Source: Metarhizium brunneum
Lineage: Eukaryota > Ascomycota > Sordariomycetes > Hypocreales > Clavicipitaceae
Reading direction: 5' to 3'
DNA length: 64,000 nt
Assembly: GCF_013426205.1 (NCBI RefSeq)
Contig: NC_089424.1
Span: 3,348,001-3,412,000, forward strand
Below the pieces are notes generated by a model, which ran no database searches, was not told the origin of the DNA, and saw nothing but the letters and a program-made list of their open reading frames with translations. Positions 256 to 49,084 of the stretch are shown here, piece after piece; positions within the stretch are counted from its first letter, which is position 1, and every line of letters begins with the position of its first letter. The position numbers were made by a program, and so were the translations under genes.

Positions 256-1709
256 ATGCGTGACAAGATGGAAACCCCGTCGCGTCCAAAAGGCAAGAAA
301 CTTCCTTTCAAGACAACGGTTTTGTGCAAGGTGGCTTCACAGAATGTCGAGACAATCCATGATGAGAAACTGTCGGCGGAAGACGATGGACTCGACTTAT
401 TTCGCAGATCTAAGGAGATGGAGCCTATAATAGCTGCGGAGCTTCAGAGAAGCCTAAAGAAGAGGCAGAGGCTGGAGGACGAACGACGTCAGTCCGCCAA
501 GTCCAAGAGACCTCTCGATGACAATATCGAAAGAGAAGTTATAGCAAACGCCGAATCTGGAACGTTCTCTCAGGCAGCTCGAAGCACGCCCCCCGTCGTT
601 AGTGAGCTTGTTAAAGACAGCAGAGAAGTAGTCAGGTTAGTATATATATGCGTGATATGGGCGTCATGCAGCTTACAATCACAAGCAAGTTTGTCACGCC
701 ACTGGCATCGAAGCGAATGCGTCTAGACTCAACACTCCTAAGGAATGCAAGTCTTGATATGGACAATGCGGACACCACACTAAACAACTTATCATCCACC
801 CGATTCTTGCGATCCCACCCGAAGCAACCAACAATAAATAACTTGCCCGGCGACACACTTACCTCGAACGGTTTGCCAATGGTGCTTCTTGATTCTGACG
901 ACGAGGACAGTATCCAGGTTGCACCTACGCCAACAAATCGACGGGACAGCGTCTGCTTCATAGCAAGAGACGAGGACGATGAATTTGCTCATTATATTCG
1001 CAAGGCAGAGGAACAACGTGTCCATGACGGTTCATATGAAGCTGCGGCAAAAGAAAAGATTGATATTCTTGTGACTTCAATTGTCCCTGGTACTAAGCCT
1101 TGCTGTTTCAAATTTCTCTATGATAAGCAGCTCCGGCTAGTTCGTAACGCCTGGCTCACTCTTCAGAAACACAGAGGAGTCCTTGTGGATATTGAAAAAG
1201 ACGACGACATTGTGCTTACTTGGTGCAGAAAGAAGGCATATGCATTTTCTACCTTGCTGAATATGGGTATCCGGCCACATGGCGACGGGCGGGCTATAGT
1301 GGATGGACACAGCACTAGCGGTCTTGCCCACGGTCGAACAAAGGTCCACATAGAGGCATGGACATTGGATTTGTTTCGAGAGATGGAACGTGAAGAGGCG
1401 CTTAAGCGGAGGAGAGAGACTGTGGAATTACTAGACGAGGGGGGCCCAGTGCCGGCAGAAAGGGAACCTGTCACTCCCGAGGTCAAGATACGGGTCATCC
1501 TCAAGGCTCGCGACCTCGACGACGTCAAAATGACAGTGCGACCGGAAACAACAGTTGGAACCCTTATTACTAGTTTCCGCACGCAACGCTCAATAGGACC
1601 AGACAAATATATTGGGGTTTGGTTTGACGGAGACATACTAGAGGAGCATGCCACGATGGAAGAGGCGGAGATTGATGATATGGACACATTTGAGGTGCAT
1701 ATTAAATAA
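256..1709 (+). CDS. Rad60/Esc2/NIP45-type protein with two SUMO-like domains
   Basis: Exons 256..635 and 686..1709 with a 50 nt GTTAGT..CAAG intron; the join keeps phase and gives 467 aa. The open frame extends upstream to a TTG at 223, but the first ATG is at 256, after a stop at 205. The C-terminal 75 residues (about 390-467) form a ubiquitin-like fold pattern, starting KIRVILKARD and ending in a short acidic tail. A second, weaker SUMO-like stretch lies near residues 255-345 (KIDILVTSIVPGTKP). The N-terminal half is basic and low in complexity, with an acidic LLDSDDED patch that resembles a SUMO-interacting motif. Two tandem SUMO-like domains behind a disordered N-terminus is the architecture of the Rad60/Esc2/NIP45 family, which acts in the nucleus in SUMO-dependent genome maintenance. 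The family call is good; orthology to Esc2 is inferred. Confidence 0.8.
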
Positions 1710-5058: not shown

Positions 5059-5643
5059 ATTAGACGACCAGGCTGGCGGGCTGGGTATTAGTGCTACGAC
5101 CAGAACGCCGTAACCTGATTGGCTGCAAGCAAGACCTGACACTCTGAGGGATGGTGGCCTAACCATCAAGAGGTTCAAAAGGGTTAGTACTTGTATATCT
5201 GCTATTTTTCTTCTTTTTTTTTACACGGCAGTTCCAGGCTTAGCAAGATTAGGTGATAATCAACAATCAGTGGGATGGTTACCAGTAACAACCGCTCCCT
5301 CTGGGCGCCAAAAAGGGATTGTCGGCGCTTGAGTAACTATTGTATTTTGTTTGAATCACGCTGGTGAATATCAATACCCGACAGAAACGCTATGTAAATG
5401 ATTGCGAATCTTCTACCTCTCTAGTTGTTTCTTTCGCTATGCTCTTGTCTAGTCCCACATTGCTCTACGAGGTCGGAAATGCGCCAGAACATAAATGGAG
5501 AACACCTCCAACTCCCTGGAAATCCACCTTGGTACTACTCCTTTGCACGACTGTCTGATTCCGATGCTACACTTTCTTGACGTGCCATATCTGCAGCGGT
5601 CACCTGAAGGGGCAGTGGGAAGGTGTTCTCCTATCACTGGTTG
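5059..5643. other. Intergenic
   Basis: About 580 bases between the tail-to-tail orphan and MADS-like genes. It contains a poly-pyrimidine run (5205-5222) consistent with a 3' end region. No gene supported. Confidence 0.5.
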
Positions 5644-5892
5644 TTAGCTATTGCTCTCAAATTCCCCGCGCCTCGGAGTGTGTCTCACAATTTCCTCTGC
5701 AGACAAAGGCCAGGCTTTGTCAGTGGATTTAAATTCGAATATCCGACCGTTCCGCCTTAGCAAAATATACACATCGGCTCGGTAGTCTTCATGGACACCG
5801 CATCCGCTTTTTACTAAAGTGTTCCACCTCTTCTTGAAGTTTTCATTACTTCTGTCTCTTTTCTTTGGCTTACCTGATGCTACAGCGGACAT
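5644..5892 (-). CDS. Small MADS-box-like protein, 82 aa
   Basis: Single exon, ATG at 5892, stop at 5644. The middle of the protein (FKKRWNTLVKSG, then DVYILLRRNGRIFEF) follows the pattern of a MADS domain: a basic helix that binds the DNA minor groove, followed by the beta strand of the dimer interface. Everything after the MADS-like core is missing, so it is far shorter than MCM1- or RLM1-type factors (200-600 aa). A TATA-like TATATAA (minus strand, 5946-5952) lies about 55 bases upstream. It could be a stand-alone dimerising regulator or a truncated remnant. The resemblance is at motif level and was not tested by alignment. Confidence 0.5.
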   Translation of the reverse strand: MSAVASGKPKKRDRSNENFKKRWNTLVKSGCGVHEDYRADVYILLRRNGRIFEFKSTDKAWPLSAEEIVRHTPRRGEFESNS

Positions 5893-6568
5893 TGGAAAAG
5901 TATGGAGAACAAAGGCTGATCCAAAGCAGTAGGAGGTTCGGCCGCTTATATAGTAGGATTTTCTCCATCAGGGTCGCCCAACCGCACATGCCGTGTTGAC
6001 GTAAACTTAAGTCGCTCATTGCCATATCCAAGCGATGACATAAAACGAGTAGTTACACTTCCGTCCCAAGTGTTGACACAAGCAGACACCTCCTTGACAA
6101 GCCCCACCCATGACTTGGTTCGTTGAAATCGAGGATCAAATGTTTGTTTCGTCCCCTCCAAATTACAGTACAAACGTCAACGCATGATACAGTTGTATTA
6201 ATGTACATATAACAAACGAGTAATCCCCCAAACAAAATTTCGAAACTGAGACGAAATAAAATTGTTCTCTTTGCTCAGCGGATCGGGCATTCATCGCATC
6301 GTTCCTTTGGATCCAGGTGCAGTGGGCCACTATTAGGACGCAGCATCGCCTCTCCCTTGCCAGACAGTCGGTTGGGTCACTGTGCTCACACTAACCCAAT
6401 GGCCTATTTATGTCACCGTCTCTCTCGTAAACACGTTCCCAGCTGCCGCTCATAAATGGGATGAATATGCCCACCCGTTCTCGATCCATTCTACTCATCT
6501 TCATTTGTAAAGAGAGGTGAGGAACTTGCACTTTGTCCCTTTGGAACTTTTTATCTTTAGAAATAAAC
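5893..6568. other. Divergent intergenic region between MADS-like and recombinase genes
   Basis: About 680 bases separating two divergently read genes. If the recombinase marks one end of a mobile element, the element boundary would be expected in or near here. I saw no convincing terminal repeat or target-site duplication by eye. Short minus-strand open frames (5946-6235) have no recognisable product. Confidence 0.4.
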
Positions 6569-9281
6569 ATGACTGGCAAACAAATGCACGATACTGTTTT
6601 GCGAACCCTCGAGGTCGCGGCTCGGCGACGCCATCGAGCTACTCTAGCTCGGAAAGAAAGGCAGAAACATACAATAAGTGCACTTGGCTATCACCGCATG
6701 CAGAGACAGCTGAATGAGGAAACATTTCTGGCCCCAATAGATGCAGACACTACTATGGCCAACATTTACTATATTAGAAAGAAATTTATGAGGTGCAGTC
6801 CAAAACAAGCCCTAATTCAATAAGAGGAGTTGTCTAACCGGTTAGCTAGATTTTGCCGGGAAAAGAAACATGGCAATTGGCGGAAAGCTATTAAGTGGAA
6901 ATACTGTAACAAGGGTCTAATAATGACATTTCTATTTTTCATTTGCGAGACCTACATTCAGCCCAGACGCAAGCGAGCCAAATTGAAGACAGTGAACCAA
7001 TATTGGCGCGACTTCAAGATGTTGTACCGCCGGTCAAACCAGGGCAGAGTCGTTAATGCGAATGACTGCGAAGAAATTCGAAAGGTGGTCCCTGTGTTGG
7101 CTGATGGAAGTGCGCGTTGCATACTAACAGTCGACAGCATATCCACGGCCGATTGAAAAGCCAATTCAATTTAGATGACCAGCCCGGATCCAAGCCTGTG
7201 ATGGGAGTGGATGATCTCCTGTTGGGGCTGACACAACACTGGTGCCGCGACAGGAGTGTCTTCCCCACCGAAGACGACCGTCTTGACCTTGCCACCATTA
7301 TGCTCTTCCAATCGTATACTGCTTGTAGGCCTGCTGAGCTTGTGGATGGCACCAAGTGTAGGGGAGGACAAGATCCGTTGTTTGAAGATTTGAACCACGA
7401 TGACGCAGCTACCGGGATGACTGCGAAGCGCAGTCTTCCCATGTCGCAGGGCATCACGCAGTACGTCGACGAACATAGCGCAGTCTCGGGTACTGGGCAC
7501 AAGCAGGAGGAGTCAGAGCAAGAACACGATTCAGATTCTGACAACTCTGTGTTGGACACCGATGACCCCTATGACAGTGATGGCGCAGAGGATACCGAAT
7601 CTGACGACGAGGACTCCAATGGCACCACCCACCAGGGCGGCGGGAAATGGCAATTCAAGCAAGCTGGTGAACCCATGGATCTAGATGAGGCTGAGGAAGA
7701 CCACGAGATAGTTCGAAAGCACAAGGCTCTGTGCTACGAAGACATTGTGCTCTGGCTTGTTCAGGATCCTAATGGTGGGGATAGGGACGTTTTGGCCATG
7801 GAAGTCATGTTCCGACACCACAAAGGAGCTAAAAACAAGCCCAAGCCGTATGTTAGCACCCTTGTTGAACATGACAGTGATGCTGCTGTGCCCTTACTAA
7901 CCATGCGCTTAGCACCATCTTTTTATTTCGCGAAAACCCGTTGCCGATTCTATGTCCCATAAGTCATATACTGGCTCGTGCCATACGGGACGATGCTATT
8001 GAAGTAGAAGGGTTCAATAAAGCTTCTCGCCTCTTCTCATCTCACATTCGCAGAAGTGCAACCAGGGTTTACTGGAAATCCAGTATACTGAAAACGCCTG
8101 TGTTTCGACGGTCAATCCGCACCGCTGGCGGATGGGTCAAGTCTAACACGGAGCCGATGAAGTATTCGACATACGCTTTCTACCTCGATAGGATAGGTAC
8201 CGAACTGGGGTCAGAGGAGAAATGGACGTCGTATTGCTTCCGTCGCGGCCACGCAAATGCTCTGCTTGGCATCGCTCCCGATTCCATTGTTGATCAGGTC
8301 ATGAGGCACGACCCTCTCACTGGGTGCCTGCAAAATGCATACCAAAACAGTCGGGTAGGATTTAATACGCAGGACGCATTCCTTGAAAGAGACCCATCTG
8401 CCGACGGTCTGACCCGGGCCTTCACACATATGAGCATCAAATGCAATCCTGAAGTTCCAAAGCAGATCCCCAAAGCTGAGTTAGCCAAGCTACCTCCTGA
8501 TCCCGAAGTCGTCCGTCTTGCGAAACAGGTTGAGGTAATGGCACGTCGCATGAGGCAAGACTACGGATTCATCAAGGCTGCCCCCGAGACGGTCAGGGAA
8601 GAGTATCAACAACTGCGGAAAGACCTCAGAAACACTGAAAAGGCTTTTCGGGATGACATGACGAAAGTTTACCAAGAGGAGTGTCGTCGGCGCCTCCATA
8701 ACGAGGAGTTGCAGAGACAGTTAAGCGAGATGCCAGTAGATCCCGAACTTGGTGAAAGAGCCAAGCTCGAGCCAAGTGTGCAGCATCAACTAGAGGAGCG
8801 AACAAAACTACAAGCCATCCTGAGTGACTTCAGACAAGATTTAGATGCAAAAGCCACCACAGACCGCAAGGTCCGAGCCGTTGAGCTGATGGTTCTTTTA
8901 GCATCTCTCAGAGAGGTGCGTAGGCCCACCGTATCCACATCCTCCTCGCTGTGCCAAGGCAGCATTCGTCCAGGCTCTCCCGACATCAAGCCTGCAGTTC
9001 CCAATGTCAAGGTTGAGGAGATACCCCTTGTACTTGGTGAAACGCAGTGCATATATTGTGTCGGCGAAGAGCAACTCCCGTATAGCAGGCGCATGCGCTC
9101 ATTCGGGCGCAAATCTCACATGTGGGATCACGTAGAGAATTTGCATCTCAAGTACGAGCGCAAGAACGGGCCTTTTACTTGCCCCCACCCGCACTGTAGG
9201 CCTTTAGGAGATTCCCTACGGAGTTTGACTACCTTCAAGAACCATGTGCAACGAGTACATGGTGTAAGGCTTCGGGGGTGA
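6569..9281 (+). CDS. DUF3435 tyrosine recombinase with C-terminal zinc fingers (Starship captain-like)
   Basis: Exons 6569..6792, 6850..7084, 7138..7847 and 7913..9281; introns of 57, 53 and 65 nt; all joins in phase; 845 aa. The first intron removes an in-frame TAA at 6821 and joins KKFMR to FCREKKHGNW. The family core is complete. Tyrosine-recombinase catalytic residues can be placed: Arg about 217 (TACRPAEL), Arg/His about 500-503 (CFRRGHAN) and Tyr about 533 (LQNAYQNSR). An acidic linker (residues about 285-335) interrupts the core, then comes a coiled-coil-like stretch (about 570-690), then Cys/His pairs (about 769-840; CIYC.., PFTCPHPHC, HVQRVHG). DUF3435 proteins include the captains that mobilise Starship elements, but many DUF3435 genes are not attached to an element. 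It reads as intact. Earlier annotations of this family may say FluG-domain protein. Confidence 0.85.
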
Positions 9282-9913
9282 CTAGCTTTTGCAAGAGCCT
9301 TGCAGGTGGTCTTACGGCAGACAACATGACCTGGGCTGGGGGACGTGCTTGCTCTGAAGCTAAGCACGACCCAAGCGTTTTGCCGCCAACGTCCAGGTTC
9401 CCTGTATTAGATTATTACGTAGCCATTTACGTGAATTACGCCACTGAAGAATAAATATTTAACTGATTAATATATTAAAAGCATGTAGTTATTTAGTTAC
9501 GCGATTAAAAAATTACCATTGGGACCATGCACTCCCCATAACATGACTAGAGGAAAATGAGGACCAAGTAGAGTCTAGGCCACGGCGGAGTGTGTGCAGC
9601 GGCACCATGTATTTTCGAGGTCTCTGTATATTTAGCACTGTTTACGTTGCCAGGACTACTTACTCTGGCCCCTACTACGGGGTGGTTCCACTGCTTGCGC
9701 AGGTCATTAGTAACCCCATGTTGGGGACCAATAGTGTGGCGCTGCTTGATTCTCCTTGACGATAGGCAGCGCGCCTACCTTCGAGGGCAACGGGGGCATA
9801 ATTTCTACACTATATATGTCGAACAAAAAAAACTATCTGGGGGCTGATTTCAGACAGAGGGGTACGATTTCGGACCCCTGCAGCTGGGCAAGCAGTAGTG
9901 GTTGGTGAAGAGT
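9282..9913. other. AT-rich intergenic DNA downstream of the recombinase
   Basis: A strongly AT-rich block lies at 9415-9520, with repeated TTAC and TTAA words, followed by unremarkable DNA. No gene supported. Confidence 0.4.
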
Positions 9914-10783
9914 TTATTGACTCATTGCCTCTGTACGTGAAGCCACAGGCTTAAGATCGAAGATTCGTGAATTGTTGTGATGCTTCAGCAGATGAGTCGT
10001 GAAACTCCTGACCATTGCCAGTTCCTTATCAGCGCAGAATGGGCAACGATATAGTTTTTTTGAAGTCTTGTATATGTCGGGTTTTGGGCTCTCATTGTTC
10101 GATTTATCCGTCATTTGATCGATAAGGCACTGTGGAAGGGCCAATGGCCATTCATTGCATTCAGATGTAACCGACCTGCGATGCGACCGGTCATCGAAGC
10201 GTAACTGCCGTGCCCTCTTTATGTCTCCCACCACGTCACAACTAGGGCATTTAATACCTGGCGATCAAATTTCCGTAGACATTTGGGACATATTCGCCAG
10301 CTCTTGAATCGGAACCGCTTCGTTGTTTTCCGACATGTCGGTTTGTCTTGATGGGATCTCCCCCGCTGCTTCCGTGTGCTCGATCAACGTACCCGAGCAA
10401 GATGGCTGCTGGCATATTTCGTCGCTCGCGAAACTTGTCCAAATGCTCTTTGGTGTGGATATGGAACCGTTGGTAATGTTTGCTTAGCTCGCTGCATCGC
10501 TTGAAAGGGCCGGTAGTGCAATTGGGGAAGAGGCAACAGAAATGGAGCTCATCTCTGCATTTAATCGTTAGCATAAGACAAAATTGGCGAAAGCTCAAAT
10601 CGTACGATTCGTGGGCATGGTCACCAGAATGATGACCTGGAAAAGTGACGGTTTCTTGTGCGTAATCGCGGATGACGCATCAAAAGACTGGATTGCCCTC
10701 GAGGAGCATTCCGCACATTTAGTTCCACAGATAGCATGGTTCGTTGTTGGCGCACCGTCGGCATCAGTGCAGGCATCTCTCAT
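9914..10783 (-). CDS. C2H2-type zinc-finger protein, intact or frameshifted (model uncertain)
   Basis: Three minus-strand open segments belong together: about 10783-10635 (CGTKCAECSS), 10568-10260 (CCLFPNC..SKHYQRFHIH, a clear C2H2 finger) and 10250-9914 (KCPSCDVVGD, then YRCPFCADKE..THLLKHH, a second finger). A splice with branch GCTAAC and an acceptor near 10565 plausibly joins the first two, but the donor could be 10642, 10630 or 10615. Between the second and third segments no ordinary intron restores phase. The frame that reads CPKCLRKFDRQ appears to continue into IKCPSC only with a one-base shift near 10256. So this is either a pseudogene with a frameshift or a gene whose exon I could not resolve. 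A nuclear nucleic-acid-binding role is inferred from the fingers only. Confidence 0.4.
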
Positions 10784-13220
10784 ACTTCTCAAGTATATAG
10801 TCACCAACTTCCTGGCATACTCTAGTCTCACTCTTTAATGCATACTACAGTGCGAGGGACATTAGTCTATATTTATGGACCAACGGTCGGATGCAGACCC
10901 TTCCATGTAACGTGGGCCAAATTAGGCTGCAGTTTACCCAATAAGCAATCATCTCTAATGTTCTGGTACCATAGCTCATCAGAGAAAGTGCACAGAACTG
11001 GCTGGTGCGAGCGAGCGAGAGTTCGAGCATCACAGTGCTCAAGTTAAGTTGCGAAGGTGTTCAGGTAGTTTGAGCAGCTCGACGCAAGAGAGGGATGTCG
11101 TGATAAAAAGAGCTGGGTGTGTGGAGGCAAAGTCTTTGAAAACTGGCTCGTAAGAGCCGATTTGTAGGCAAACTGGGTGCCTTCGCAATTGCCTAAGCAG
11201 CTAACCAAAACACGCTAACCACCATTTTATGACAGCAGACCTTGGGCAGCTTGAAATACGGGGCAGCAGCGACGGGGCAGCACAACAAATTGACCAGCAA
11301 GGCTACGCTAGCCATCCAAGGGGGATAGCACTGGCGTGTCAGCAGAATCCTGCTATCCGGAACCTGCTGTCCTACAATTCAGGCTAGCGCAGGCATGCCA
11401 GTGCCCGCCGCATCCCCGAGCACGAATTGATCTAGGGCCGATCCAGCGCTAGTGCCACACGTGTACTGGTACAAGAGAGGAACCAGTTTACCCACGAAAC
11501 TAGGGTGAAGGTGGCTTTGGTTCTGGAAGTGGCCTGCTGAAGGAACAGTGCCAGGGCTAGTAACTTGCCAGCACACCATTCTCACCAGTCCTGCATGTGT
11601 CCTCGTTCAGCAGGTCCTCCAGTCTGCGTCTCCGCCTAGCACAAGAGCTCCGGTTCAGTGACGGAACCAGAGCAGATCACCTAGATTCCATTTTAAAGCA
11701 GAACACATGTACGAGGGCAGACCGCGGCCCATTTCGTATGACCTAGGGCCTCACACGAACTGGATTACTTGAGGCGAACCTATATGTGCTGATCCAAACG
11801 TCTCTGGATAACGAAGCCCCGTATGCGCCGACACCTTGGTACGCCCAAGTAACTAGGCTTGAAGGTAAAGGGTTGAGCTGGATGTCGAGCAGGCGTGGAA
11901 GCAGCCGCCTACCTGGGCGCTTGTTTTTTGGCCTGAGCGAAACTTGGCTCGTGCTAAGTGTGTTACGCGGCATGTGGCGCAGACTGATGGGCTGCATAAT
12001 TAATGGGCTGGAGCCGACAGGCCGTCGCAAAATCTGGGCGTCATCTCCCTTCATCTGCATCCCTCTGCATTGCTGCACAACTAGGCCTCATAAGGTACCC
12101 TACATAAGAACCACGGGAACTAAGGCAAGATCGTCGCCAAACACGGTGCCCAAAATACTATTATTTAGTGCAGGTTGCTAGAAGTACCTATATTACGGGT
12201 TGACTGAAACTAATTGATACCACCCAACCCAAATGCGATAGTCACCGTCCGGACCCAGGAGAATCGTCCGAGGTGACGAGAGCAGCTTTAAGTATAACCA
12301 TACGAAAGAGGGTTTGGGTTGTTCAGCATGAATAGTAAGCGCTTACGCCAGAGACATGTTTTTTTGAGCGAGCGCCATCTGATGGGACACACCAGTTCGC
12401 ACATGGCGCCTACACCGGTAGGCAAAATCGCTAAGACCCCGGCCGTCCCAAATCCTCGCAAGCCACTCTCCTCCCAAGGTAGTCTCCCGAGCCCGACAGC
12501 ATCTCCCACCTTAGCTAGCCAGAAGAAAGGTTCGGCTATGCAGACGGTAGTGTGATCACACAACGCATCTGGATATTTGTGAAAGTTCGTCAACCGGAGC
12601 ACCATTACTGACATGGTCTTTTAACACTGACAGGACGGGAGCCGTGCAATCCGCGCGCTGGCCGACCAATTGCCATGATCCCGTCTGCCATGGTGATGTA
12701 GACAAGCGCCCGTCGCGATTCGACACTGAAAGCAGCATTTGTGTCTGTCGGTCGCGCCCCCCGGCCGCCCGTTGCCCCCCACAAAAAGCCAAGCGTTTTA
12801 GTTTTCGGCCCGCATCAAGTCAATGGATAAAAACGTGCATCCCCTAGCGAGTCACTTGGACCTATTAGATGTTAATTTAGAATGTGCCTCGAGCCGCTGG
12901 AACCCTCTGTTGTGACTTGCTACAAAACTGGCTATCGCTTCCAACCTCTCTACTTGAGTTGCTCCCCACACTCGCCCGGCGACGAAGTATTTAGGTATAA
13001 GTACGGCGATCGAGCGGCCAACGAGCCGGCAGATTCTATTCCGAGACTAACTAGCTTCATATTGCCTCTGCTCAATCAGATATTTGACCTTGGCTTTCAC
13101 TAAATAACCCCTAATACCGCTGTTGGGCTGTTAAATGTCTGGGATAAATGGTGCTTGCTCTTTTGCGAAGTCGTGGAGATTCGTGTTGGGGAGTAGCGGA
13201 CACCGGCCGGTACGTTGCTG
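10784..13220. other. Gene-poor stretch
   Basis: About 2.4 kb with short overlapping open frames on both strands and no recognisable product, finger, membrane or catalytic motif. The word CGACGGGGCAGC at about 11270 recurs near 30218, hinting at a shared degenerate repeat. No tRNA-like cloverleaf seen. Confidence 0.4.
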
Positions 13221-15308: not shown

Positions 15309-15334
15309 CGAAGTTTAGGTTGTCTGTCGCGGCT

Positions 15335-16980: not shown

Positions 16981-17001
16981 TGTCGGTCGCAGTGCAGTCA
17001 A

Positions 17002-18090: not shown

Positions 18091-18348
18091 GTGGATTCTA
18101 GAAAAGGAAGTGAGTTCTTTAGCAAGACCAGATCCGATTCCGTCGCTGTTTCTCCACTCTCCCTGAAAATGGATGCTTCGCACATCCCAGGATCACGGCC
18201 TAAAGTGGTACACGTCAGAAATTGGATGTCACTGATGCCAGGAGTACCTACCAAAGCCGTCCAAAATGGATCTTTCAATCCGAGGGGCGCGGACGCTGCC
18301 GATGTCAGGAGTTTTGATCCCAGGAAGACAGATGTCAAAGTACTGATT

Positions 18349-18393: not shown

Positions 18394-18426
18394 AGCCCAA
18401 GAGACCACGCATCCAAAATTGGGGGC

Positions 18427-20211: not shown

Positions 20212-20741
20212 TGCACGAGCCCTGCCCTTTTTACAGAGTTTAAACCTTCTGGCAAGACCTGGCCATTGTCCCCCGGTGATATTGGGTAGAAAATGCTGCG
20301 AAGGTATAGCTAATGTCTGGCAACAGGATTTATCCTTCCCACCATTTCGACGCCTCAAAGTAACAATGGAGTTTTTCCAGATCGTCGCTCTCAATGGTGA
20401 GCTGTTCGATATGTTTGAAGCTAATGAGTGAATTAACGGCAATTATAACTATGTGTCAGGGACCTAAACAATACATATATGCGCGGCGTTAGCGGCAGTC
20501 TTGCGCTTCATACGCATATATATAATGGGCGACCTGCTTCTCGCCCTAGATCTTCAATCTCCGCTGCCTCGCGACCCATCGACAGCATCGGGTGTGCCAT
20601 GCCAGACTCATTCCTTGAAATGTATCCACAGGAACAATGTTTTCTGGACCTTTAATTTCGCTGCTGGTAGTCAGCTCTCTGTTCTTGTCAGAGTTTCCAG
20701 CGGAATGTTCATTCCGGGGGGCTACGGGTGCTCTCAGCAGC

Positions 20742-22985
20742 TCAGATAGGTGCCGACCGTGTGATCTCTCCAGAAGAATCCCCAACTGCATCAAACCCAT
20801 GAGATCCAAATAGAAGATCTGGAGAACCCAAAGCGAGAGACGGCAGAGCAGAAATATTATCATGAGAATTGATGGGACGCATCGCTGTGATATCGGTCTG
20901 AATCTCGTTGATCGTCATCGACCCAATGCGGGGGCTGGTAGTCTGTTCAATAGACGTTGTGACGATAATAGCCTTCTTCAACATCCCGATTGGGTGGAAA
21001 GCTCCGTTACAACCCTGTGGTTCAGCCTCTGGCCAGTGATCTCCGTCATCGGATGTAGAGACCTTATCACAGGATGGCTTCTCCTTCCTCCAGCCTTGGA
21101 TGCCGGAATCGCCGCAGTCAACTTCAGTCATTTTACGAGCTCCATGATCCAAGGTGAAATCCATGTCAGTGTCCCAAATTTGAGAATTACGGTCGCAGTT
21201 GGTTTTGCTGCGATGATCTTGCACAACTAGCTCCGGCTCGGCGCCGGCACCTGCATCAGGCGGAGCGGAAGTTCTATGGACAGTGGACTCGCCGACGGCA
21301 CTCAAGAGAGGCGTGGAAGCACAAAGCGATGGAGGCGGAGAGACACTACATCCTGGTTAGCTGCAAAGTCTGAATGCTTGTCTGTTATGAGAAGGACTTA
21401 CGGTATAAGCAGTTTTAAGTCGGGAAACTTCTTGGTCCTCTTTATTCGGCTCTTGGCGGGCTTTTCCTCGTCATAATCTTTCATCCACAAGCCGTCTTCC
21501 AAATGCCGAACAGTCTCTATAGATTCCTTACACTTTCTTTCTCCATCCTTGACTGGCTTCTCACTTGGTGCAAATCCGACCCAATCATTGGCTTCCTTCA
21601 ACGCGTCTTCAGCCGAGTCCTTATGCTTTAAGAGATGAGACATGATCTGCGCCGTGCTGAATTTGAGTTCTGGGACCTTCTTGGCAAAATCTGCTGCAAG
21701 TCTGCTCAGTTCCAATAATGTCTCGTCGTCAACGGCGTCATGTTGATTTTTAGGCCCGAACACGAAGCTGAACAGGTCTTTGGTCACATCTGAATCTGCC
21801 AACGGAATTTCAAGTTTCATGTCAATACGGCCCGGTCTTATGAGCGCTTCGTCCAGATTTTCAATATGATTTGTAGTCATGATCAAAATTCGTCCTTCTT
21901 GAGATGCAACACCATCCAAGGCGTTTAGAAGTCCTGATAGAGAGAGTGCCTTTGCCTTTTTTCCAAATTTGTCTGAACCCTGTCGATCCGTTCCAATGGC
22001 ATCAATATCCTCCAACAAAACAACACATCTCTCAGGAAGTCTGTTGAATAGTTCCTCCAGCGCCTGATCATCCACGGTGGGGGCACTGATGATGTAAATG
22101 TCCAGATTAAATTCTCCGGCCACCGCCGAGCCGAGACTTGACTTCCCGGTGCCAGGTGGACCGTGAAGCAAATACCCTCTTCGATATGGGATGCCGCGCT
22201 GCGTATACCAGTGTTGAGTTTCCTCGCTTAGAAAATTCTTGATGTCGTCCACCAACTTTCGTTTCAGAGAGCCACTGATAATGACAGTGGCAAGTGGCCG
22301 TTTTTCTTTAGTTGATATCCTTTTCCAGTAGTCGCCAGAGTTTTTGAACATTGTTATCTTGTTTTCAATATGCTGCAAGTATTCCTGTCGACATTCTGCA
22401 ATAAAATTCTTAAGAACTTGAACAGATCTACCAAGGCAACTAATGGTAATGACCTCCTCTTTGTGCAACCCCGTGGTGACAGTTTGCATTTCGAAGGAAA
22501 GGGTTTTGTGCCCAAATGAAAAAGTAAAAGATCCAGTCCATGGTGAAAAGGAAATCATTTTCTTTTCGTCGTTGTCGGCGCCATCTCTAGACTTCGACTT
22601 CCCTACTTGAGCGATAATTGATCTTGCCGCGTTATCAACTCCACGAGACGAGAGCCAGGCCATAAGCATATCAAATGCCTCGTCGGTAGCTTTTACATGG
22701 AGTGTTACGGCTAAGCGAGGTCAGAGAGGGACTTTATTGCAGAGATAGATACTAACTGAAGTGACCTTCAAGCAATGACTGTACTTTGCCAAGGTAGGGT
22801 TTCAAGACTGTAAAAAATCCATAGATGCACATCATAGGACCATAGATGTTAAACGCCCAGGTAAGAAGCTGGGTGAAACCTGGCAGCGAAGGATCAGGCT
22901 GGGAGAAATCCACGATTCGAATAGGTTCAGCTGAACCAAGCATATTCCAGGTCCATGGAATGCTGTCGTTCGAGTATGTTGGCAT
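20742..22985 (-). CDS. BCS1-like AAA ATPase, 713 aa
   Basis: Minus-strand exons 22985..22757, 22710..21402 and 21345..20742. Intron 1 is 46 nt, GTTAGT..CTTAG. Intron 2 is 56 nt, GTAAGT..TGTAG, with branch CTAAC. An N-terminal hydrophobic helix (about residues 37-65) precedes a BCS1-N-type region, then the AAA core with Walker A GPPGTGKS (about 260-267), Walker B VVLLEDIDA (about 306-314) and the second-region-of-homology NHIENLDEALIRPGRID. Family founder Bcs1 is a mitochondrial inner-membrane translocase of the Rieske protein; fungi carry many divergent paralogues of unknown role, and the Ser/Asp-rich 230-residue tail here marks it as one of these. If intron 2 is retained the protein stops at LLIP after 512 residues, so the tail rests on the splice. 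A TATATAAA box lies about 136 bases upstream. Confidence 0.85.
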
Positions 22986-27407: not shown

Positions 27408-27671
27408 GGGGCCTAGGTGTATGTAATAGAAATAGGAATTACCCTTTTCACAGAATATTTAATAGATGTGAGGACGAGTTCCCACCTGTTTATACACACG
27501 CACGACCAAAGAGTATTTACATCCATCTCTGTTGGGGCGCTTGGTGGATCGGACATTGTGTTCTATTTAGCGCGGGTCGTGGTCAGCTCACGTGACTCAT
27601 GGCGTCGTTACATTTTTTGTTTACATTTCCATCCCATCCTTCCACAGTACTTGCTTCTATCCATCCTCAAC

Positions 27672-29984
27672 ATGCCCCTTACGGAGCAACAAATCAACGT
27701 TATTTCGGAGCATCCGCTCAATGATACGTTAGATCGCTTCCGCGACAAGCTACGCGACCTCGACGAGGCAGACCGATCATGGCGCGACGCGACAGCGAGC
27801 ATTATATTGGCACTGGTTGATACTGGCGCCGCATTAAACCTTGGCTCTAGAGGTGGAAAGGAGACTTTAGCTGATGATCTTTTCCCCTTATATCCGGGTG
27901 TCCGAAAAGGATCCTTTAAAAGCGAGCATTTCCGTCGTCTTGCTCGTTGCATCATCGACAAAGCTTCTGACATCGACATCTGGGAAACAGTCTTTAGTGT
28001 CGTCGAATCCCTCAGTGCCCTCACCCCCCCTGGGTCCAGCATCGCACCGACATTCAAAGGAACACCTGTCAAGACCAGCTCGAGCCGACTTGCTGATAGC
28101 GAAACGCGCGACGTTGTCGAAGGGGAGCTCTTCGAGGAAATTAAAAACTGCACCTTTCGCAATGTGAAGGGATTTTGTGACAAGTTTTTCGATCCCAAGT
28201 CCTGGCGCCAAGAACAGAAAGCGATGCTGAGGGCGATGATGACAGCACACGACGGAAAGAAATGGACAGAATTTCCTTCCACTACCGACGAAAGACCCGT
28301 CTGGGACTGGCTTTGCTTACTTGAAGAGCGCTTCCTAGCCGATGCACCACACAGGCTTCATACCACCAGAACCGCCAACCAGTTTAAGGAACGGAAAGGC
28401 CAGATGGATGTTTTCTTGCAAACACCAGTCACGAACGCGAACGACACGTTTGAGTATAAACACGTCCTGGTGGTTGGAGAGCAAAAGAAGTCAAACGACA
28501 CAGGCAGGTTCAAGGCGACTCTCCTCCAGCTCGCGCGCTATGTGCGAGGCGTCTTCGCCGACCAGCCGACACGCCGGTTCGTGCACGCGTTCTCACTCTG
28601 CGCTTCCACGATGGAGCTCTGGGTCTTCGACCGCTCTGGGGCTTACAGCTCGGGGCCATTCGACATTCACGACGAGCCGGATAAGTTTGCGCGTGCACTT
28701 GTGGGATATGCTACAATGGATGACGATGCGATGGGCCTTGACACGTTCATCGAGCGAGGGGATGCGTGTCGTCATGTCACACTGGACGACGCGAGCGGCA
28801 ATGAGATGAGGGTTAGGTTGGACAAGGCGATGGTCAGGCAGTGGGCCATTGTGTGCCGCGGAACTACGTGCTACGAGACCCAAAACAGCCAGGTCGCGAA
28901 GTTCTCGTGGGCATCGGATAAGCGGAAGCTAGAGTCGGAACAACTAAAGTTGGCTGAACAACGGGGTGTCAAAGGAGTGGCCAGAGTGGTTGCGTATCGC
29001 CAGATCACCACCATTGCAGAGCTGCGGGATGGACTGGAGTTCCCGAAGCATCACAAGTTCCGAAATGAGGCCAATTTTTCTGAAGATCTGCCGTCGGCCA
29101 CCGCAAGCACGCACACATCGGATCACAAGCGCAAATCATCCGACGATGACGCCTCCGACAATACGTCAGAATCCAAGAAGCGACGGCCCAACAGTCAGAA
29201 GTCAAAGCTGTGCACGGAATTTAATGACCAGTTATCGATCGGCAAGGCTAAGCCGAGCCTGTACATGCCTGGCGAGGACCCATGGGAGAACAGGATTTAT
29301 TCCTGCCTCGTCGTCTCACCAGCCGGCCGTGTCATCAGCGACTTTAGGACGATTAAGGAACTGCTGGAGTCGATGCGAGATGCGATTAGGGCACACCAGT
29401 CTCTCTACACCGTTGGCAACATCCTACATCGCGATATTTCTTCAAATAACATCATTATTACAAACCCCGAGACGGCGGATGGCTTCAGGGGTATGCTCAT
29501 TGATCTTGACCTGGCGAAAGTGAGAGATAGTGGGCCAAGTGGGGCGCGACACCAGACTGGCACAATGCAGTTTATGGCCATTCAAGTGCTGCGGGGGGTC
29601 GATCACACCTACCGTCATGACCTTGAGTCATTCTTCTACGTTCTGCTCTGGATGTGTGCGCGCTGTTCATGGTCCAATAGGTTTGGGGGCGAGGAAAAAC
29701 CACCTCGGGAGAGCCTTCTCCGGAAATGGGGAATTGGTAGCTTCAAAGATATTGCGAATGCTAAAGGGTGGCATATGACCGTAAATGGTCTTGAAGAGGT
29801 TATGGACGAGTTTCCAGACATCTTTAATGTTGTGAAGCCGCTTTGTCTCAAGATCCGGTCCATAATGTTTGGGGAAACAGCAAGGCTAAATGTTGGAACT
29901 CCTGCAGGAAACCCAGACCAACTTTATAACGATACCATAGTGGCTTATGACGAAGCCATTGATGAGCTTTTAGAGGGTCAATAG
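27672..29984 (+). CDS. FunK1-type fungal protein kinase, 770 aa
   Basis: Single exon. The frame is open from 27417, but the natural start is ATG 27672 (MPLTEQQIN) after a pyrimidine-rich leader. The family pattern is clear: an N-terminal half with RKGQMDVFL and HVLVVGEQKKS; a middle region with RPTRRFVHAFSLCASTMELWVFDRSG-like order (about 320-345); an inserted acidic, Ser-rich segment with KRKSSDDDASD; and the catalytic loop ILHRDISSNNIII (His-Arg-Asp about 586-588). The metal-binding motif is DLD (about 611-613) where most kinases have DFG; FunK1 members commonly vary here. GTMQFMAIQVL stands for the APE-side GTxxFMA. FunK1 kinases are expanded in fungi and their substrates are unknown. The promoter abuts a helicase relic. 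Confidence 0.9.
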   Translation: MPLTEQQINVISEHPLNDTLDRFRDKLRDLDEADRSWRDATASIILALVDTGAALNLGSRGGKETLADDLFPLYPGVRKGSFKSEHFRRLARCIIDKASDIDIWETVFSVVESLSALTPPGSSIAPTFKGTPVKTSSSRLADSETRDVVEGELFEEIKNCTFRNVKGFCDKFFDPKSWRQEQKAMLRAMMTAHDGKKWTEFPSTTDERPVWDWLCLLEERFLADAPHRLHTTRTANQFKERKGQMDVFLQTPVTNANDTFEYKHVLVVGEQKKSNDTGRFKATLLQLARYVRGVFADQPTRRFVHAFSLCASTMELWVFDRSGAYSSGPFDIHDEPDKFARALVGYATMDDDAMGLDTFIERGDACRHVTLDDASGNEMRVRLDKAMVRQWAIVCRGTTCYETQNSQVAKFSWASDKRKLESEQLKLAEQRGVKGVARVVAYRQITTIAELRDGLEFPKHHKFRNEANFSEDLPSATASTHTSDHKRKSSDDDASDNTSESKKRRPNSQKSKLCTEFNDQLSIGKAKPSLYMPGEDPWENRIYSCLVVSPAGRVISDFRTIKELLESMRDAIRAHQSLYTVGNILHRDISSNNIIITNPETADGFRGMLIDLDLAKVRDSGPSGARHQTGTMQFMAIQVLRGVDHTYRHDLESFFYVLLWMCARCSWSNRFGGEEKPPRESLLRKWGIGSFKDIANAKGWHMTVNGLEEVMDEFPDIFNVVKPLCLKIRSIMFGETARLNVGTPAGNPDQLYNDTIVAYDEAIDELLEGQ

Positions 29985-30859: not shown

Positions 30860-32336
30860 TTGACGTTTCAAGCGCTAAGAATTGATATATACAACTTTCT
30901 ATTTGAATAAATATACATAGAGGAATCATTGGTCAAAGACACTGTGCATGTTGCTATCGACTGGAGTGTGGTGGGGTGGTCGCAAACTTTTGTCACATTA
31001 CCGTAGCTGTAGGCGCCTTTGCTGGTACCTGCAGTAGTTATATGATCAAGTCGCTACCAGTATTTTAAGCGCGCCTGCGATAAACCACGGCACTGCCCTG
31101 CAGCTCGGAGCTCATAATCATCAGTTGCTCTTTCATTCGCCTCGTAATATATCAGCCACTGCCATAAAACGTATCAAAGATCGTTCAATGAAATAAAAGG
31201 ACACTTCAGAAACACTAAAGCATGCGCATTCAGACTATCGACTGGCACCAATGCACTATAGCCACGGGACACGTGGCTGTACCGCGTCCCGAGACGAGGG
31301 TATTTCGAAGAATTGCAAGGGGGGAGCCAAAAAGCTATGGCTTGCCGCCAATGCAAACCTGGCCTTGGCATCCCCGTTAAAGAGTTCGTCCAAAGAGTAC
31401 TTTCTTCTTGGCTCTTTCTCCTACTGTGTATACTTTGATTTACTTTGGCAGCACAGCAGGCTTGCAAGATAGACCCATGTGGGAGCACGTAAACGTCTAA
31501 CGGCTGTGCCAGTTTTTGCTCGGTCCCCGTCGTATCTAACGCCTTTCAACACCATCAATCATCAGCCATTTTTCGCTGCAGAACCAAACAGCCACGGAAG
31601 ACGGGCTTTAGCGGTGTACCGTTCAGCCAAGGTCGACGGTGAACTCGTCCTGGCTTTGGATTAGTGCTGTTGACACTTACTACTCCCTTCAGCTTTGGTA
31701 AGCATATGCTGCAGCTCCATGGAGGGTGTGAGGCCTGCCATAATTTCTTCTCTCAGCGTCTCTCTTCCCTTGGCAGAGTAAAAGCCCACGACCAGCAGTC
31801 ACGTACATTGTCACGTTGAGCCGCAGTTTATTTTTATGTTTTACGAAACTCAGCCAAATTTCTGTGTGGTTATTGATTACGCAGGCTGATAATCTAATTC
31901 TACCAACTCAACTCTGTCGTCGACGTGCCTTTGCACAATGGCTTGCAGATCTTTCCGTAAGCCAGTGGATGCCGCAACCTGGTCTGTTAGTCATAATCCC
32001 AAAATAGGTGTTCCAATATTACTTGCCTGTGACAATCAGGTCGCCTCGCGCAGAGGCTTTCTCCTGCACCCGTTTGATGTATTTACCCGCGACCTCTTCT
32101 CTCGTTATAGAGTACCAATCGGGCAAGCCCTTGATGACTTCAGCCCTTGGCCTTACTTTTTCCTGCCTGTCACGATCTCTACATACACTGATATCTGCAG
32201 AATCTTCAGTGGAAGCGCTTTCGGACGATGTTATAGCCCTCGTCGTTGATATGGATCAAGTAACAGGGTCCTTGAATTTTTTGCTGTCTCCGAGTCCGAT
32301 GACGAATACAATAAAAATGGCTCAGATTCTCTCGCT
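30860..32336. other. Gene-poor stretch
   Basis: About 1.5 kb with short frames on both strands only. Apart from the putative Tc1 terminal repeat at its start, nothing is supported. Confidence 0.4.
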
Positions 32337-33893
32337 TCACAAGCTAACCATGACGGCATCTTTGACATGATAAACCTCTGCAACTCTGTTAAGGATATCT
32401 GCAAGATTTGTCCATAGGAATAGCGTGACTCGTTTAGTCTCCTCGCCCACTTTGAATTTTTGGGCGTGCCGTCTGGATACGGTTTGGGCTACATTGCCGT
32501 GTAACAGCTTCTCGACGGCTTTGAGATCGAGATTTGTCAAATAGACCTTGCGCGCCAAGGACATAACATCAAAAATTGTGACCACAATTTCTTCAGCATG
32601 ACGGACACATCTGACAAGATGAGAAGATTCGGTAATCTCACAATTTTTCTCCACTCCGTCAACCTGGACTGAGTCGGTACTAAACGTGAAACGAGCATAT
32701 CTCACTTCTTCCGCTCCCCAGTTGTCAACTACTCGGTCGAGATCATGCGCCAAATATTGTAGTCGCTCGTCATGCCACGTTATCTCGGGGCTCTGGAGCC
32801 CTGTCCCGTTGTGTGCGGCTGATTTTGACAGGCGTGGTTTTTTGTTCGGACCGAAAGGCCCCTTCTTTTGTCGCTTGAGCGAGACAGCTGGTTCAATCGC
32901 ATGGCGCACGGGAGCTGCCGTATCAAGCTGCCGCCTGACCTCTTTCTCGCTCTCAATTGCTAATGCCAGGTCTGCTTCTGCCTTTTCTGCCCGTGCCTCT
33001 GCTTGCCTTGTCGACGTAATCATCCATACCTGATTTCTTTCCAACTCCTCTTTATGTTTTTCCGCCAATGCTTTAGCTTTCTCAGCTTCAAGCCTTGCTC
33101 GGTCTGCTTCTTCAGCGCGCCTCTCCTTTTCCTGTCGGGCCTGTTCTGCATCTTCGGCTCGCTTCTCAGCTTCGTGTCGGGCCTGTTCTGCATCTTCGAC
33201 TCGCTTCTCAGCTTCGTGTCGGGCCTGTTCTGCATCTTCGGCTCGCTTCTCAGCTTCGTGTCGGGCCTGTTCTGCATCTTCAGCTCGCCCTTCTGCTACT
33301 TCTCTGGCGTGGTATGACTCCCTCTCCCTATTGACCGCTGAGCTCATTTCTTCCTCGGCTCTTTTGGCATGATCATGCGCCGCGACGTTTGACTGAAGCG
33401 CCCTTTCAACCTCGGCTTTGGCCCACGTCTCATAAGCTTTCGCAGTCTGTTGCGTCTCTTCTACTACCGCAATTGCCAAGTTTCTTCCTTGCTCGAGCTC
33501 GCTGTAGGATTGTGCTGCTATTTGCAGCGCTTGCCAATTCTGCCGGATTTGTTCGTCCTTTTCCAATGTAATTGCTTCCAGTTTTAAGTATTTCTCTTCC
33601 ATTTCGTGAATACGATGCAAGACGGCTGCATTTTCCAGCTCCAAAGTCTGGAGTTTTTTCTGCATCATAATTTGACATTGCTCTGCTTTTCTTGCATGCT
33701 CAGTTCTCTTGAGGAGCTGCTTAACAGCAGCTTCCAATTCTCGCGCACAGTCATCAACTTTGGAAACGGCGTCCGAGTGATCCGGGATGGATTGATATTG
33801 GGTTGAGGAATTACTTGCTTCAATGATCATGGGCTCATCCTTCTTTGCGTCGCAGTCCCCTCTGCCGTCTCCATGAAAGGGTTGAGGCATCAT
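32337..33893 (-). CDS. Coiled-coil protein with internal 14-residue repeats, 518 aa
   Basis: Single exon; the open frame begins at a TTG at 33908, the first ATG is at 33893. Residues about 55-330 are a long heptad-rich coiled coil, including about four near-perfect 14-residue repeats ([14 protein letters not shown]) encoded by a 42 bp minisatellite. After a basic link with [15 protein letters not shown] (likely nuclear signal) comes a C-terminal globular region of about 150 residues ([16 protein letters not shown] through VKDAVMVSL) that I do not recognise. TATATAAA on the minus strand lies about 130 bases upstream. It is divergent from 34485 with about 590 bases between starts, so the two may share regulation. 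Structural or scaffold role is inferred. Confidence 0.75.
33125..33295 (-). repeat. 42 bp in-frame minisatellite inside the coiled-coil gene
   Basis: Four copies of a 42 bp unit (14 codons, two heptads), the middle ones nearly identical at DNA level. Copy number can change without breaking the frame, so length polymorphism between strains is likely. Confidence 0.85.
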
Positions 33894-34484
33894 GGTATAA
33901 AATGACAATCGCGGTTATTGATATTGCTCGCATGGGTTGTGACTTTATTAGAATCACTTCGCTTATGTTACGCGTGAATTGTTGAAGATGATCAGGAAAC
34001 ATGTTTGGAGAGTAAGTGGACTTTATATAGACGTCTAAAGAGTCCTTGGGATGTATCAATAACAAGCTATCCAGTTAAGCTTTGCGGCCATGACTCTGAG
34101 ACTACAAGTGTACAGAGGGACAGTACGAGCCGAAGCATGGGACCACATGTTGGTTTGTGATTCCAGTCGCATGCAAGTTTACGCAATGGCGCGGCTCATC
34201 CGCCATCGAGCTTCCCCGTTGGTCGAGGTTACGTCTTGGATCTAGCCCCACAGCGGCCCTGTATTGTGGCGCGGCTGCGTATGACTGCATATGTGCAAAT
34301 TTAGGCTTGCTTCGCTAAAACAAGAGCAAAATTGCGTTCTAGTAGATGTCGATGTGCTAACCAATCGGATCAACAGAATAAATGGCGTGACCTTCCGAAC
34401 AAGTGTCAAATCTGCAAAGTTCCCTCACTCCTCTCGCAAACTTCCTTTGGCACCGATACATTCAAATTGCCATAGCCTACCTAA
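33894..34484. promoter_or_regulatory. Shared intergenic region of a divergent gene pair
   Basis: About 590 bases between the start codons of the coiled-coil gene (minus) and the 397 aa orphan (plus). It includes a minus-strand TATATAAA at 34022-34029. No operator-like repeat recognised. Confidence 0.5.
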
Positions 34485-35678: not shown

Positions 35679-35712
35679 TCAATTGAACCACCCATGGTTG
35701 TCCTAAGCAATG

Positions 35713-46693: not shown

Positions 46694-49084
46694 CTACTCC
46701 TGGCTAGGCAAATCGGGCACCATAGGAGGAAGGTCGCCCGGGGGCGCCTCGACAGCTTCGACAGACGTCGTGCCGGGATGCTCGACTGCGACAGTGATAT
46801 CAAAGGAGGTATGGAGCGGCTGCAGCGACCCCTTTGCAGCCCCGGCAATGGTGGCCTTGGCCTTGCCCGCGGCTCGGGCGTAGAAAACGAACCTGCCCTC
46901 CTCGTCTGGCGGGCCTCGCGGCACCAGCACTTCGATGTTGTCGCTAAACGACGTCATGGAGGCAAACCGATCCGTGTCCACGGCAACACGCAGCTCTTTG
47001 CCGATATGCACCACATCTGGCAGGCTGGCCCAGTCAGGCTTGATGCCGGTCGGCAGGTGAGGGGCCGCCTCGCGAGAGGCCAGCTGCGCATCGATGTCGG
47101 CCGCGAGGGCGGAGATGTCAACCTCTAGCTCGAGCTTGGGCTCGGGCTCGCTGGAGAAGTACTGGGCGTGGATGAACAGGTTGCCGCGGATCCAGAAAGC
47201 GCTTGTGGCGGTGCGGAAGCTGTAGGCGCCGAGGCGCGGCCCGTCCGTATGGACGACAGCCGATAGCGGATGGATCTGGATGCTCGCTAGGAGGGAGACG
47301 AGGGCGTGCATGGGGCCCTCGAAGTCCTCGAAGGCGTCAATTGTCACGGTAGCTGTGTCACTGCCGTGGCGGAAGGCGTAGGTGGTGTGAGAGGACGTCT
47401 CGAAGACGGATGTGGTGGTGCCGGCAGCGGCAAGATTCTTGCTCACGGCACTGCGGAGGGTTGCGTCCTGCACGTCGACCCGATTGAATTCCGGCTTGGC
47501 TGCATCCGGTACCTTGCCCTTTTCCACCAGGGTCTCGATCTCCTTGGCAAGCTCCTCGGGGATCATGGCGGAGAGAGGGGCAGGTCTTCCCCACGGGTTG
47601 TAGACGCCAATGCGTTGTAGACTCGTGGATGGGTTGAGGGCTACAAGGATGCGATTAGCGTTAGAATACAGACAGAGCAACATGAACATTGTGGTCAAGC
47701 ACATACAACAACTCCCAGAAGGATTGGCCGTCGTTTTTGCTTGGGCGTTGCCACGTGGTCTGGCGGGATCCAGGGTGGCAGTAATATAATCCTGGCGGGT
47801 TTGGGTGCCGGCTGGTGGCGTCGGCGTCGGGGCCTGAAGTGCGTGTGTTGCATCGACAACCGTTGTGACTCCGCTCCGCGTCACCTCGACCCAAGCGTGG
47901 TTTCCGAAGCTAGTCCTGTTGCTCGCGGTGGGGGGCACATAAGGTGCGGTACCTTGATCGAGTCAGACCAGACATGATGTTCGGGTCAAATAAGCAACTT
48001 GACTGCACATGAAGAATATACTGACCTGCCGACTCCCAGAAAGGCGTGTTGCACCGCAGATTGTCCCCTCCAGATGCCACCCACCTAATGAGGGGCCCAG
48101 GGTTAATGAAGCCATTGGGCGATTGGAAGACCCAATGGGAGTCGGTCAACTCAGCGCCGTTTGCATCCATCAACATGGACAAAGCAAGCTGCGAAATCCC
48201 AGCCAGATCGTAGCAGTTGCATCTTGGATAGAGTGTATCAAACCATTCCTTGAGTTTGAAGCCACCACCGTAGCCCGAAACTCCATAGTAAGCCATTCCA
48301 CGAGACGTATCGTACCTGGGCGTTGTCAAGCTGGCGTTCCAAATCACGTTGACAACTGCTCGATGAATATAAAACGCGACATCTTGGCTGGCTGCGGCTG
48401 GTAATTCGGACGGGTTTGGTGCAAAGAGACGCCACAACAAGATGGGATAGCCAGGCGTCATGTCAACTCTGGTTCGTACGGTAGGCGAGGGCGCCGTGAC
48501 GGGACCCGTGGGAGCGGTTGCCCGCGCCCAGCAGAGCTCGAGGCGAGTTGTCGTGCTCGGAGCCATGCTGGCGACTGTGCCCATGGGTCAATAGTCTGCC
48601 AGGAACACTTGACCTTGGCTCCATGTCTTCTCTGGGACTTACTATATTCCTTGCCATTCCAGAGCCAAAGTTGCCAACTAAAGTCGCCACCGTACCTGAA
48701 TGGGATAACCACTTGTCTAGTTTTAAAGTCAGGCGCCATAAGATACAAACCATTCACAGCCACCGCGTTACCAGTCGCAGGGACTGGGACCAAGGGGCTA
48801 ATCAAGGCAAGTCTTCCACCGACATGTCCCGCGACGACGTAGGATTTTCCTCTCCAGATCGCAGAAAACGGGGCTGTTCCGTGGACATTAATCTTGTAGA
48901 AGCCAGTGGCAGTGGGCATGGTGTTCAAGAAAACATTGGGTCGAGTTGAGCCCGTTGGGCCGTCGACCCAGCTGCCTGTGTTATTCCAGACTGTCTGGTT
49001 ACCCAAGGGAATGGTTATTCCACCCGACGTGACTACATTGAAGCGGTTTTCAGCCTCGATTTTGGTGATGGTCCACGTTGCCAT
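46694..49084 (-). CDS. Transglutaminase-like superfamily protein, 727 aa
   Basis: Minus-strand exons 49084..48643, 48574..48026, 47952..47707 and 47640..46694; introns of 68, 73 and 66 nt; phases agree. The catalytic triad of the papain-like transglutaminase fold is visible in order: Cys in RCNCYDLAGIS (about 250), His in FGNHAWVEV (about 345) and Asp in TTVVDATHA (about 360). The N-terminal 150 residues are beta-rich (TGFYKINVHGTAPFSAIW). The last 300 have no domain I recognise. No signal peptide is evident. The enzyme could be a protease, peptidase or transamidase; fungal members are uncharacterised as far as I know. TATAAATA on the minus strand lies about 190 bases upstream. Confidence 0.75.

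Follow-up and report, generated by a model that had tools for sequence, protein, structure and literature searches.

A captain-like DUF3435 recombinase gene and the accessory DNA behind it in Metarhizium brunneum: a possible Starship relic

We analyzed a 64,000-nucleotide stretch of the genome of the fungus Metarhizium brunneum (assembly GCF_013426205.1, contig NC_089424.1, positions 3,348,001 to 3,412,000), which we call the window. It contains an intact gene, gene A, for a protein with the DUF3435 domain (PF11917) of the tyrosine recombinases, or captains, of the giant mobile elements known as Starships. The block of DNA on the 3' side of A has material in common with DNA 3' of other DUF3435 genes in the genome, unlike the tested DNA upstream of A or behind its paralogue, gene B. 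We lean, at slightly better than even confidence, toward the view that this block is a degenerate or resident Starship relic that lies beside a long-resident captain-like recombinase, and that A and B are old duplicates. The probabilities that we attach to this reading and to its rivals overlap slightly. Coordinates of the features in the window are in Table 1, and places elsewhere in the genome are given in the form C2:223703-223956.

The four exons of gene A join without a stop codon, as a first-pass annotation of the window had proposed, and encode 845 amino acids; the introns are of the GT-AG type and are 57, 53, and 65 nt long. (The NCBI gene model, P0001, has 714 amino acids and misses the first 131 residues.) In a Pfam search, PF11917 matched the open reading frames (ORFs) that hold exons 3 and 4 (E values of 2.4e-11 and 6.6e-43, or 43.7 and 147.6 bits against a cut-off of 25.8). 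We then aligned 56 proteins: P0001 and 55 that were hand-picked from the 110 homologues listed by a search with A. R217, R500, and R501 are conserved in all 56 proteins, K382 and Y533 in 55, and H522 in 50. Judging from this alignment, gene A appears to have the full catalytic R, K, R, H, Y set of DUF3435 tyrosine recombinases. The first-pass annotation had located R217, R500/R501, and Y533 correctly, but its choice of active-site histidine, H503, is a histidine in just 4 of the 56 aligned proteins and was rejected; H522 seems to be the better candidate. The predicted structure has the Cre-like catalytic fold of tyrosine recombinases. A search of PDB sequences with A did not find Cre, XerH, or the Tn1549 recombinase, and we took its one match, at E = 0.11, to be due to chance. 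Overall, sequence and structure prediction suggest that gene A encodes a working-type DUF3435 (Starship captain-like) tyrosine recombinase with an extra zinc finger at its C terminus.

Gene A is oriented toward the accessory block and has core-type genes on its upstream side. We searched three parts of the DNA behind A (9282-13100, 13100-26000, and 26001-45900) against the whole genome. These searches gave 3, 9, and 15 rows; after removing five rows from the locus itself (1, 2, and 2) and merging six neighboring pairs, 2, 5, and 9 places remained, for a total of 16. These counts are lower bounds. For nine of the 16 places, another DUF3435 gene is no more than 100 kb away, with the place on its 3' side. 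These nine fall at four loci (not delimited elements): five at C2:211k, two at C7:2652k, and one each at C7:2434k and C1:9058k. Within 25 kb, five places are on the 3' side of a DUF3435 gene and none are on the 5' side. When the set of hits was rotated along the genome, the observed 3' count was reached in 9 (100 kb), 27 (50 kb), or 7 (25 kb) of 20,000 trials. This test used 10 DUF3435 loci, including B but not A, and the three distances were picked after the matches had been seen. A DUF3435-like frame at C5:777917-778384 (34% to A), which is absent from the list of Pfam model matches, was not part of the test; all listed places are more than 100 kb from it.

The controls behaved differently. 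None of the six places that matched control stretches (5000-6568 and 45901-64000 of the window; C3:3340001-3350000; and 4.3 kb behind B) were near DUF3435 genes. For a control repeat at 49159-49355, none of the 38 listed places was within 100 kb 3' of a DUF3435 gene, and two were on a 5' side. This 197-bp repeat recurs at no fewer than 38 other places in the genome, with 89-98% identity, and is probably a short nonautonomous transposon.

Sharing with other DUF3435 loci spans 11.8-33.8 kb of the window and ends at about 33.8 kb, so cargo up to about 43 kb, which the first-pass annotation considered possible, is not established. At the C2 locus, the DUF3435 gene (211.3-212.6k) is followed by a DUF3723 gene (225.0-226.7k) and by six window-related stretches, up to 296k, two of which adjoin and were counted as one place; their order differs from that in the window, and some are inverted. 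The DUF3435 gene at C7:2652k has behind it the segment found at 31.0 kb in the window and, farther on, a copy of the coiled-coil ORF with 95% identity; the order and orientation of the two match those behind A. Besides B, this C7 gene is the only one of the nine other loci scanned that has the zinc-finger pattern without a stop codon.

Gene B was one pair among 17 exon-level matches in a genome-wide scan with PF11917. It lies 21.6 kb upstream of A on the same strand (C3:3332981-3335690), its exons join in phase (849 amino acids), and the two proteins are 73% identical over 835 aligned residues. By Nei-Gojobori counting, the ratio of nonsynonymous to synonymous substitutions (dN/dS) between A and B is 0.15 overall, 0.086 for residues 346-570, 0.03 around R217, and 0.25 in the zinc finger; dS in the coding sequence is about 1.25, and synonymous sites in the N-terminal and acidic parts are saturated. 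These ratios indicate that both coding sequences are kept under selection. DNA homology between A and B that is detectable by BLAST is restricted to the coding sequence, and a direct alignment gives matching blocks within about 270 bp upstream. The exact pattern of one of these blocks (6401..6429) occurs only twice in the genome, in the same orientation and with no inverted copy. On these grounds, and because both copies are 5' of DUF3435 genes, we rejected it as a terminal repeat. We also rejected a recent segmental duplication, given the dS of about 1.25 and how little noncoding homology there is besides the upstream blocks. The interval between B and A holds two genes, one of the transglutaminase/YccV type and one with a SUMO-like Rad60-SLD domain, and Nop16 is upstream of B. 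The intervening genes look core-type from their domains; therefore, A and B do not bound one element, and we rejected the idea that they are its two ends or its two captains. B looks like a solo gene.

In the reading we prefer, A and B would be old duplicates that stayed at their chromosomal site, with the coding sequence and apparently parts of the promoter under selection. The block 3' of A, from about 9.3 kb to at least 33.8 kb and at most 46.7 kb, would be accessory DNA that originated in a Starship or was exchanged with one, because its segments recur 3' of other DUF3435 genes. A tetramer of the A protein would bind the ends of the element, with the zinc finger and the N-terminal part recognizing the DNA; Tyr533 would cut, helped by R217, K382, R500, and H522, and the DNA behind A would be cut and pasted. 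A may once have moved the block, which may be a degenerate element that now lacks recognizable ends. The captaincy of A is unproven, and no complete element with both ends is demonstrated.

Several results weigh against a Starship origin for the block. First, 7 of the 16 shared places are near no DUF3435 gene, and one of the other nine is also 98 kb on the 5' side of a further DUF3435 gene. The nine places stem from only four loci, with five from C2, so the independent evidence amounts to less than nine. At C7:2454k, the segment found at 31.0 kb is inverted relative to its DUF3435 gene. Second, the tested DNA behind B has nothing in common with the DUF3435 loci, and the best local match between the upstream regions of A and B was equaled by 2 of 60 shuffles and is thus modest when taken alone. 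Third, the direct or terminal inverted repeats that the first-pass annotation proposed to look for did not stand out from shuffled sequence: between 5061-6568 and 33915-46690, the best inverted and direct repeats both scored 13.0, as high as in 42 and 38 of 60 shuffles, respectively, in a search that short repeats would escape. Fourth, none of the genome's 10 matches to DUF3723 is in the window. Finally, DUF3435 genes and dispersed families may both accumulate in accessory compartments, in which case enrichment need not mean transposition.

The last point can be taken further: the sharing might just reflect the habit of dispersed families (fungal kinases, BCS1-like ATPases, and a Metarhizium coiled-coil family) of residing in accessory regions, with A irrelevant. 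The kinase family is indeed very large (465 proteins at E ≤ 1e-50), and three members of the coiled-coil family carry the same M. anisopliae gene prefix, as found among the best 7997 candidates scored, in 90% clusters; M. robertsii was unlisted, which we do not use as absence. The shared places away from DUF3435 genes would fit as well. However, no reading frame is open across the segments at 31003-31260 (52 of 86 codons) or 31295-32208 (105 of 304 codons), and all four DUF3435 loci have one or the other of these two segments. The controls, at 0 of 6 and 0 of 38, also speak against this explanation. We consider this explanation improbable.

DUF3723 served as this genome's own yardstick for Starship-like loci. 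Parts of two papers (PMC12134995 and PMC10128009) associate it with Starships, and part of the former also reports Starships without it, so it is frequent but not required. Its 10 matches in the M. brunneum genome are spread over five loci, and every one lies 12-69 kb to the 3' side of a DUF3435 gene. The lack of DUF3723 in the window also counts against the idea that A is the captain of an intact, mobile Starship that runs from 1.7-6.57 kb to 33.9-46.7 kb (roughly 27-45 kb). An intact recombinase that faces the block, segment sharing with a 3' asymmetry, and cargo collinear with a zinc-finger DUF3435 locus on C7 speak for this idea. Yet the 5' flank of A (5000-6568) finds only itself in the genome search, no end repeats were found in the comparison above, A-type genes are already present in three sister species, and B is parked nearby. 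An intact element therefore seems unlikely. In a separate comparison of the regions 5' of A and of the C7:2652k gene, the match did not stand out (15 of 60 shuffles reached its score). What holds up from the first-pass proposal of a captain at the edge of an accessory region is the intact tyrosine recombinase-type gene and the accessory DNA it faces, which shares segments with the 3' sides of DUF3435 genes; the ends, a second copy of the 5' flank, and DUF3723 were not found.

To place A among its relatives, we built trees from 57 and 23 chosen rows. The A-type genes of M. brunneum, M. majus, M. robertsii, and M. anisopliae fall together in a single clade with full support. The first-pass annotation had named fixation and synteny of the gene in all relatives as an outcome that would count against a mobile element, and its presence in these three sister species leans partly that way. 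All four sister-species gene models appear disturbed: P0005 is missing both the R217 region and the MRHDP stretch, and P0015 and P0020 are truncated or gapped. In the fourth, P0014 (H634G_11327 of M. anisopliae BRIP 53293), PIF1-helicase sequence is interleaved with A-type DUF3435 sequence on an 8.1-kb contig, which is either an insertion or a misassembly. Some of the damage may be due to annotation or assembly errors, as two of the models are on contigs of less than 9 kb. In the trees, Metarhizium groups with Conoideocrella, which belongs to the same family; Purpureocillium groups with Hirsutella; and Beauveria groups with Cordyceps and Lecanicillium. Fusarium sequences appear in two separate places. 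Holding the Metarhizium rows together against Conoideocrella gave P = 0.096 in the approximately unbiased test, which does not fix the relative age of the A/B split. The C7:2652k gene is on a very long branch (2.53), and we did not use its position.

Some pairs from different orders are nearly identical: Mariannaea (Hypocreales) and Bombardia (Sordariales) share 90.8% identity, Xylaria and Diplogelasinospora 85.8%, and Stachybotrys and Ustulina 83.0%. The comparison pairs Mariannaea-Beauveria and Bombardia-Rhypophila are at about 63%. (We looked up the orders of Mariannaea, Bombardia, Ustulina, and Diplogelasinospora; those of Stachybotrys, Xylaria, Beauveria, and Rhypophila are presumed.) Because of this contrast, the zinc-finger DUF3435 family seems to move between fungi. 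The lineage of A itself looks vertical within Metarhizium. That A has been at or near its present site for a long time is indicated by its neighbor B, by the matches upstream of the two genes, and by the occurrence of A-type genes in sister species.

In another explanation, a cellular role would have kept A and B as host-resident (solo or domesticated) DUF3435 genes, and unrelated accessory DNA would have piled up on the 3' side of A. A and B are local duplicates on the same strand, with dS above 1, low dN/dS, matching upstream blocks, and core-type genes between them; the Clavicipitaceae sequences group together, as do the other two sets of genera named above; and no sharing with DUF3435 loci is seen in the tested DNA behind B. 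On the other hand, an essential host gene should not look damaged in the sister-species models, near-identity across orders suggests that the family is mobile, and the sharing starts only on the 3' side of A. We think that this explanation is somewhat unlikely, although it is the most plausible of the rivals. A more speculative proposal, to which we give very little weight, is that A and B are a coregulated pair of zinc-finger recombinases, long kept together, whose joint action (for instance, as a mixed tetramer) would either mobilize Starship-type DNA in trans or bring about regulated rearrangements of host DNA, and that they represent a captain-like class distinct from the DUF3723-associated genes. 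Neighboring pairs do recur, as with the two consecutively numbered DUF3435 genes of Beauveria bassiana described below.

The DNA behind A is gene-poor, as the first-pass annotation had described it: between about 9.3 and 46.7 kb, there are few domain-bearing genes, along with ORFs that have no Pfam match, and those with domains include two kinase-type genes. "Repeat-rich" was only partly right: we found four tandem arrays and a few dispersed segments. Two of these, at 15345-15990 and 40069-40723, are copies of one sequence 24.7 kb apart (73% identity overall and 84-91% in patches). The block shows no shift in dinucleotide indices of the kind left by repeat-induced point mutation, and the Rfam and tRNA scans gave no matches. 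The coding-bias score of the long ORF that we use as the downstream limit is not evidence for it, as this ORF was in the training set.

Table 1. Features of the window (positions in nucleotides unless given in kb)
Feature	Position	Strand	Remarks
SUMO-like Rad60-SLD gene	615..1706	+	Core-type by domain; upstream limit of any element led by A
Upstream block common to A and B	6401..6429	+	168 bp before the ATG in A, 172 bp in B
Gene A, exon 1	6569..6792	+	ATG at 6569; conserved in paralogue B
Gene A, exon 2	6850..7084	+	
Gene A, exon 3	7138..7847	+	R217 codon 7327-7329; acidic variable region; K382 codon 7822-7824
Gene A, exon 4	7913..9281	+	R500/R501 8241-8246; H522 8307-8309; Y533 8340-8342; stop 9279-9281
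C-terminal double zinc-finger-like motif of A	9048..9260	+	Residues 769-839
Shared segment	11771..12023	+	C2:223703-223956 (77%), 11 kb 3' of the DUF3435 gene at C2:211.3-212.6k
Kinase-type gene	14.2 kb		
BCS1-like AAA gene and flank	20396..22850	-	Gene at 21.4 kb; common to C2:269768-272314 (79-82%)
Fungal-type protein kinase (Pkinase_fungal)	27417..29981	+	28009-29976 common to C2:294178-296154 (85%)
Short segment	31003..31260	+	Also at C7:2648042, C7:2454434, and C1:8978028 (3.8, 19.6, and 80 kb 3' of a DUF3435 gene)
Shared segment	31295..32208	+	C2:229368-230298 (88%)
Coiled-coil ORF (32340-33914, 525 aa)	32318..33914	-	32318-33829 95% identical to C7:2635634-2637145, 3' of the zinc-finger DUF3435 gene C7:2652k
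DUF7025/AAA	38.6-40.3 kb		
Myb match	43.3 kb		Under the Pfam cut-off
Long ORF without Pfam match	46697..47962	-	Conservative downstream limit of the gene-poor block
MFS transporter	50668-52245		First domain-bearing gene after ORF 46697..47962

We also noticed other DUF3435 loci that may be of interest. A 4.4-kb stretch with a DUF3435 gene is 95.5% identical between C1 (9053001-9063000) and C7 (2532001-2542000), with DUF3723 22-25 kb to the 3' side in each; the 5' edge of the homology is at position 7652 of the C1 interval and 7786 of the C7 interval. These are probably two copies of one Starship. At C4:583-653 kb and C4:794-844 kb, there are oppositely oriented DUF3435 loci, each with two similar-scoring DUF3723 genes on the 3' side. 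Short fragments that resemble A and B (67-69% identity) lie 3' of DUF3723-type DUF3435 genes at C7:2534713-2534841 and C4:631264-631341, and another A/B-like fragment is at positions 3085-3160 of C1:9053001-9063000. Elsewhere in the family, Beauveria bassiana has a neighboring pair of DUF3435 genes, MY4038_002993 and MY4038_002994 (P0006 and P0056), with consecutive numbers on one contig.

Our literature search did not turn up a report of Starships in Metarhizium; in the accessible parts of the papers that contain both words, Metarhizium is mentioned in another connection. The M. brunneum genome contains five loci with both DUF3435 and DUF3723, the zinc-finger DUF3435 genes A, B, and C7:2652k, and segments that are common between loci. 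This common biocontrol fungus, which infects insects, therefore offers a setting for testing how captain-like genes come to be resident and how cargo passes from element to element.

Compared with known systems, A is far from the Cre, XerH, and Tn1549 tyrosine recombinases, with just 8-14% identity in alignments. It resembles the solo DUF3435 genes described in part of PMC12134995, in that no element is demonstrable at A and B looks solo, but A differs from these in being followed by shared accessory DNA. Voyager-type Starships, according to part of PMC10128009, combine DUF3435 with DUF3723; five other M. brunneum loci have this arrangement, with DUF3723 on the 3' side, and the locus in the window does not. 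The strict zinc-finger pattern was not found at the DUF3723-associated DUF3435 loci of this genome, where the C1 and C7:2537k genes give a weak match to the zinc-finger region of B (29%, E of about 5e-4). Starship captains in general differ from A, which has a C-terminal double zinc finger and for which element ends were not found, but A shares with them the DUF3435 domain, the R-K-R-H-Y set, a predicted Cre-like fold, and accessory DNA on the 3' side.
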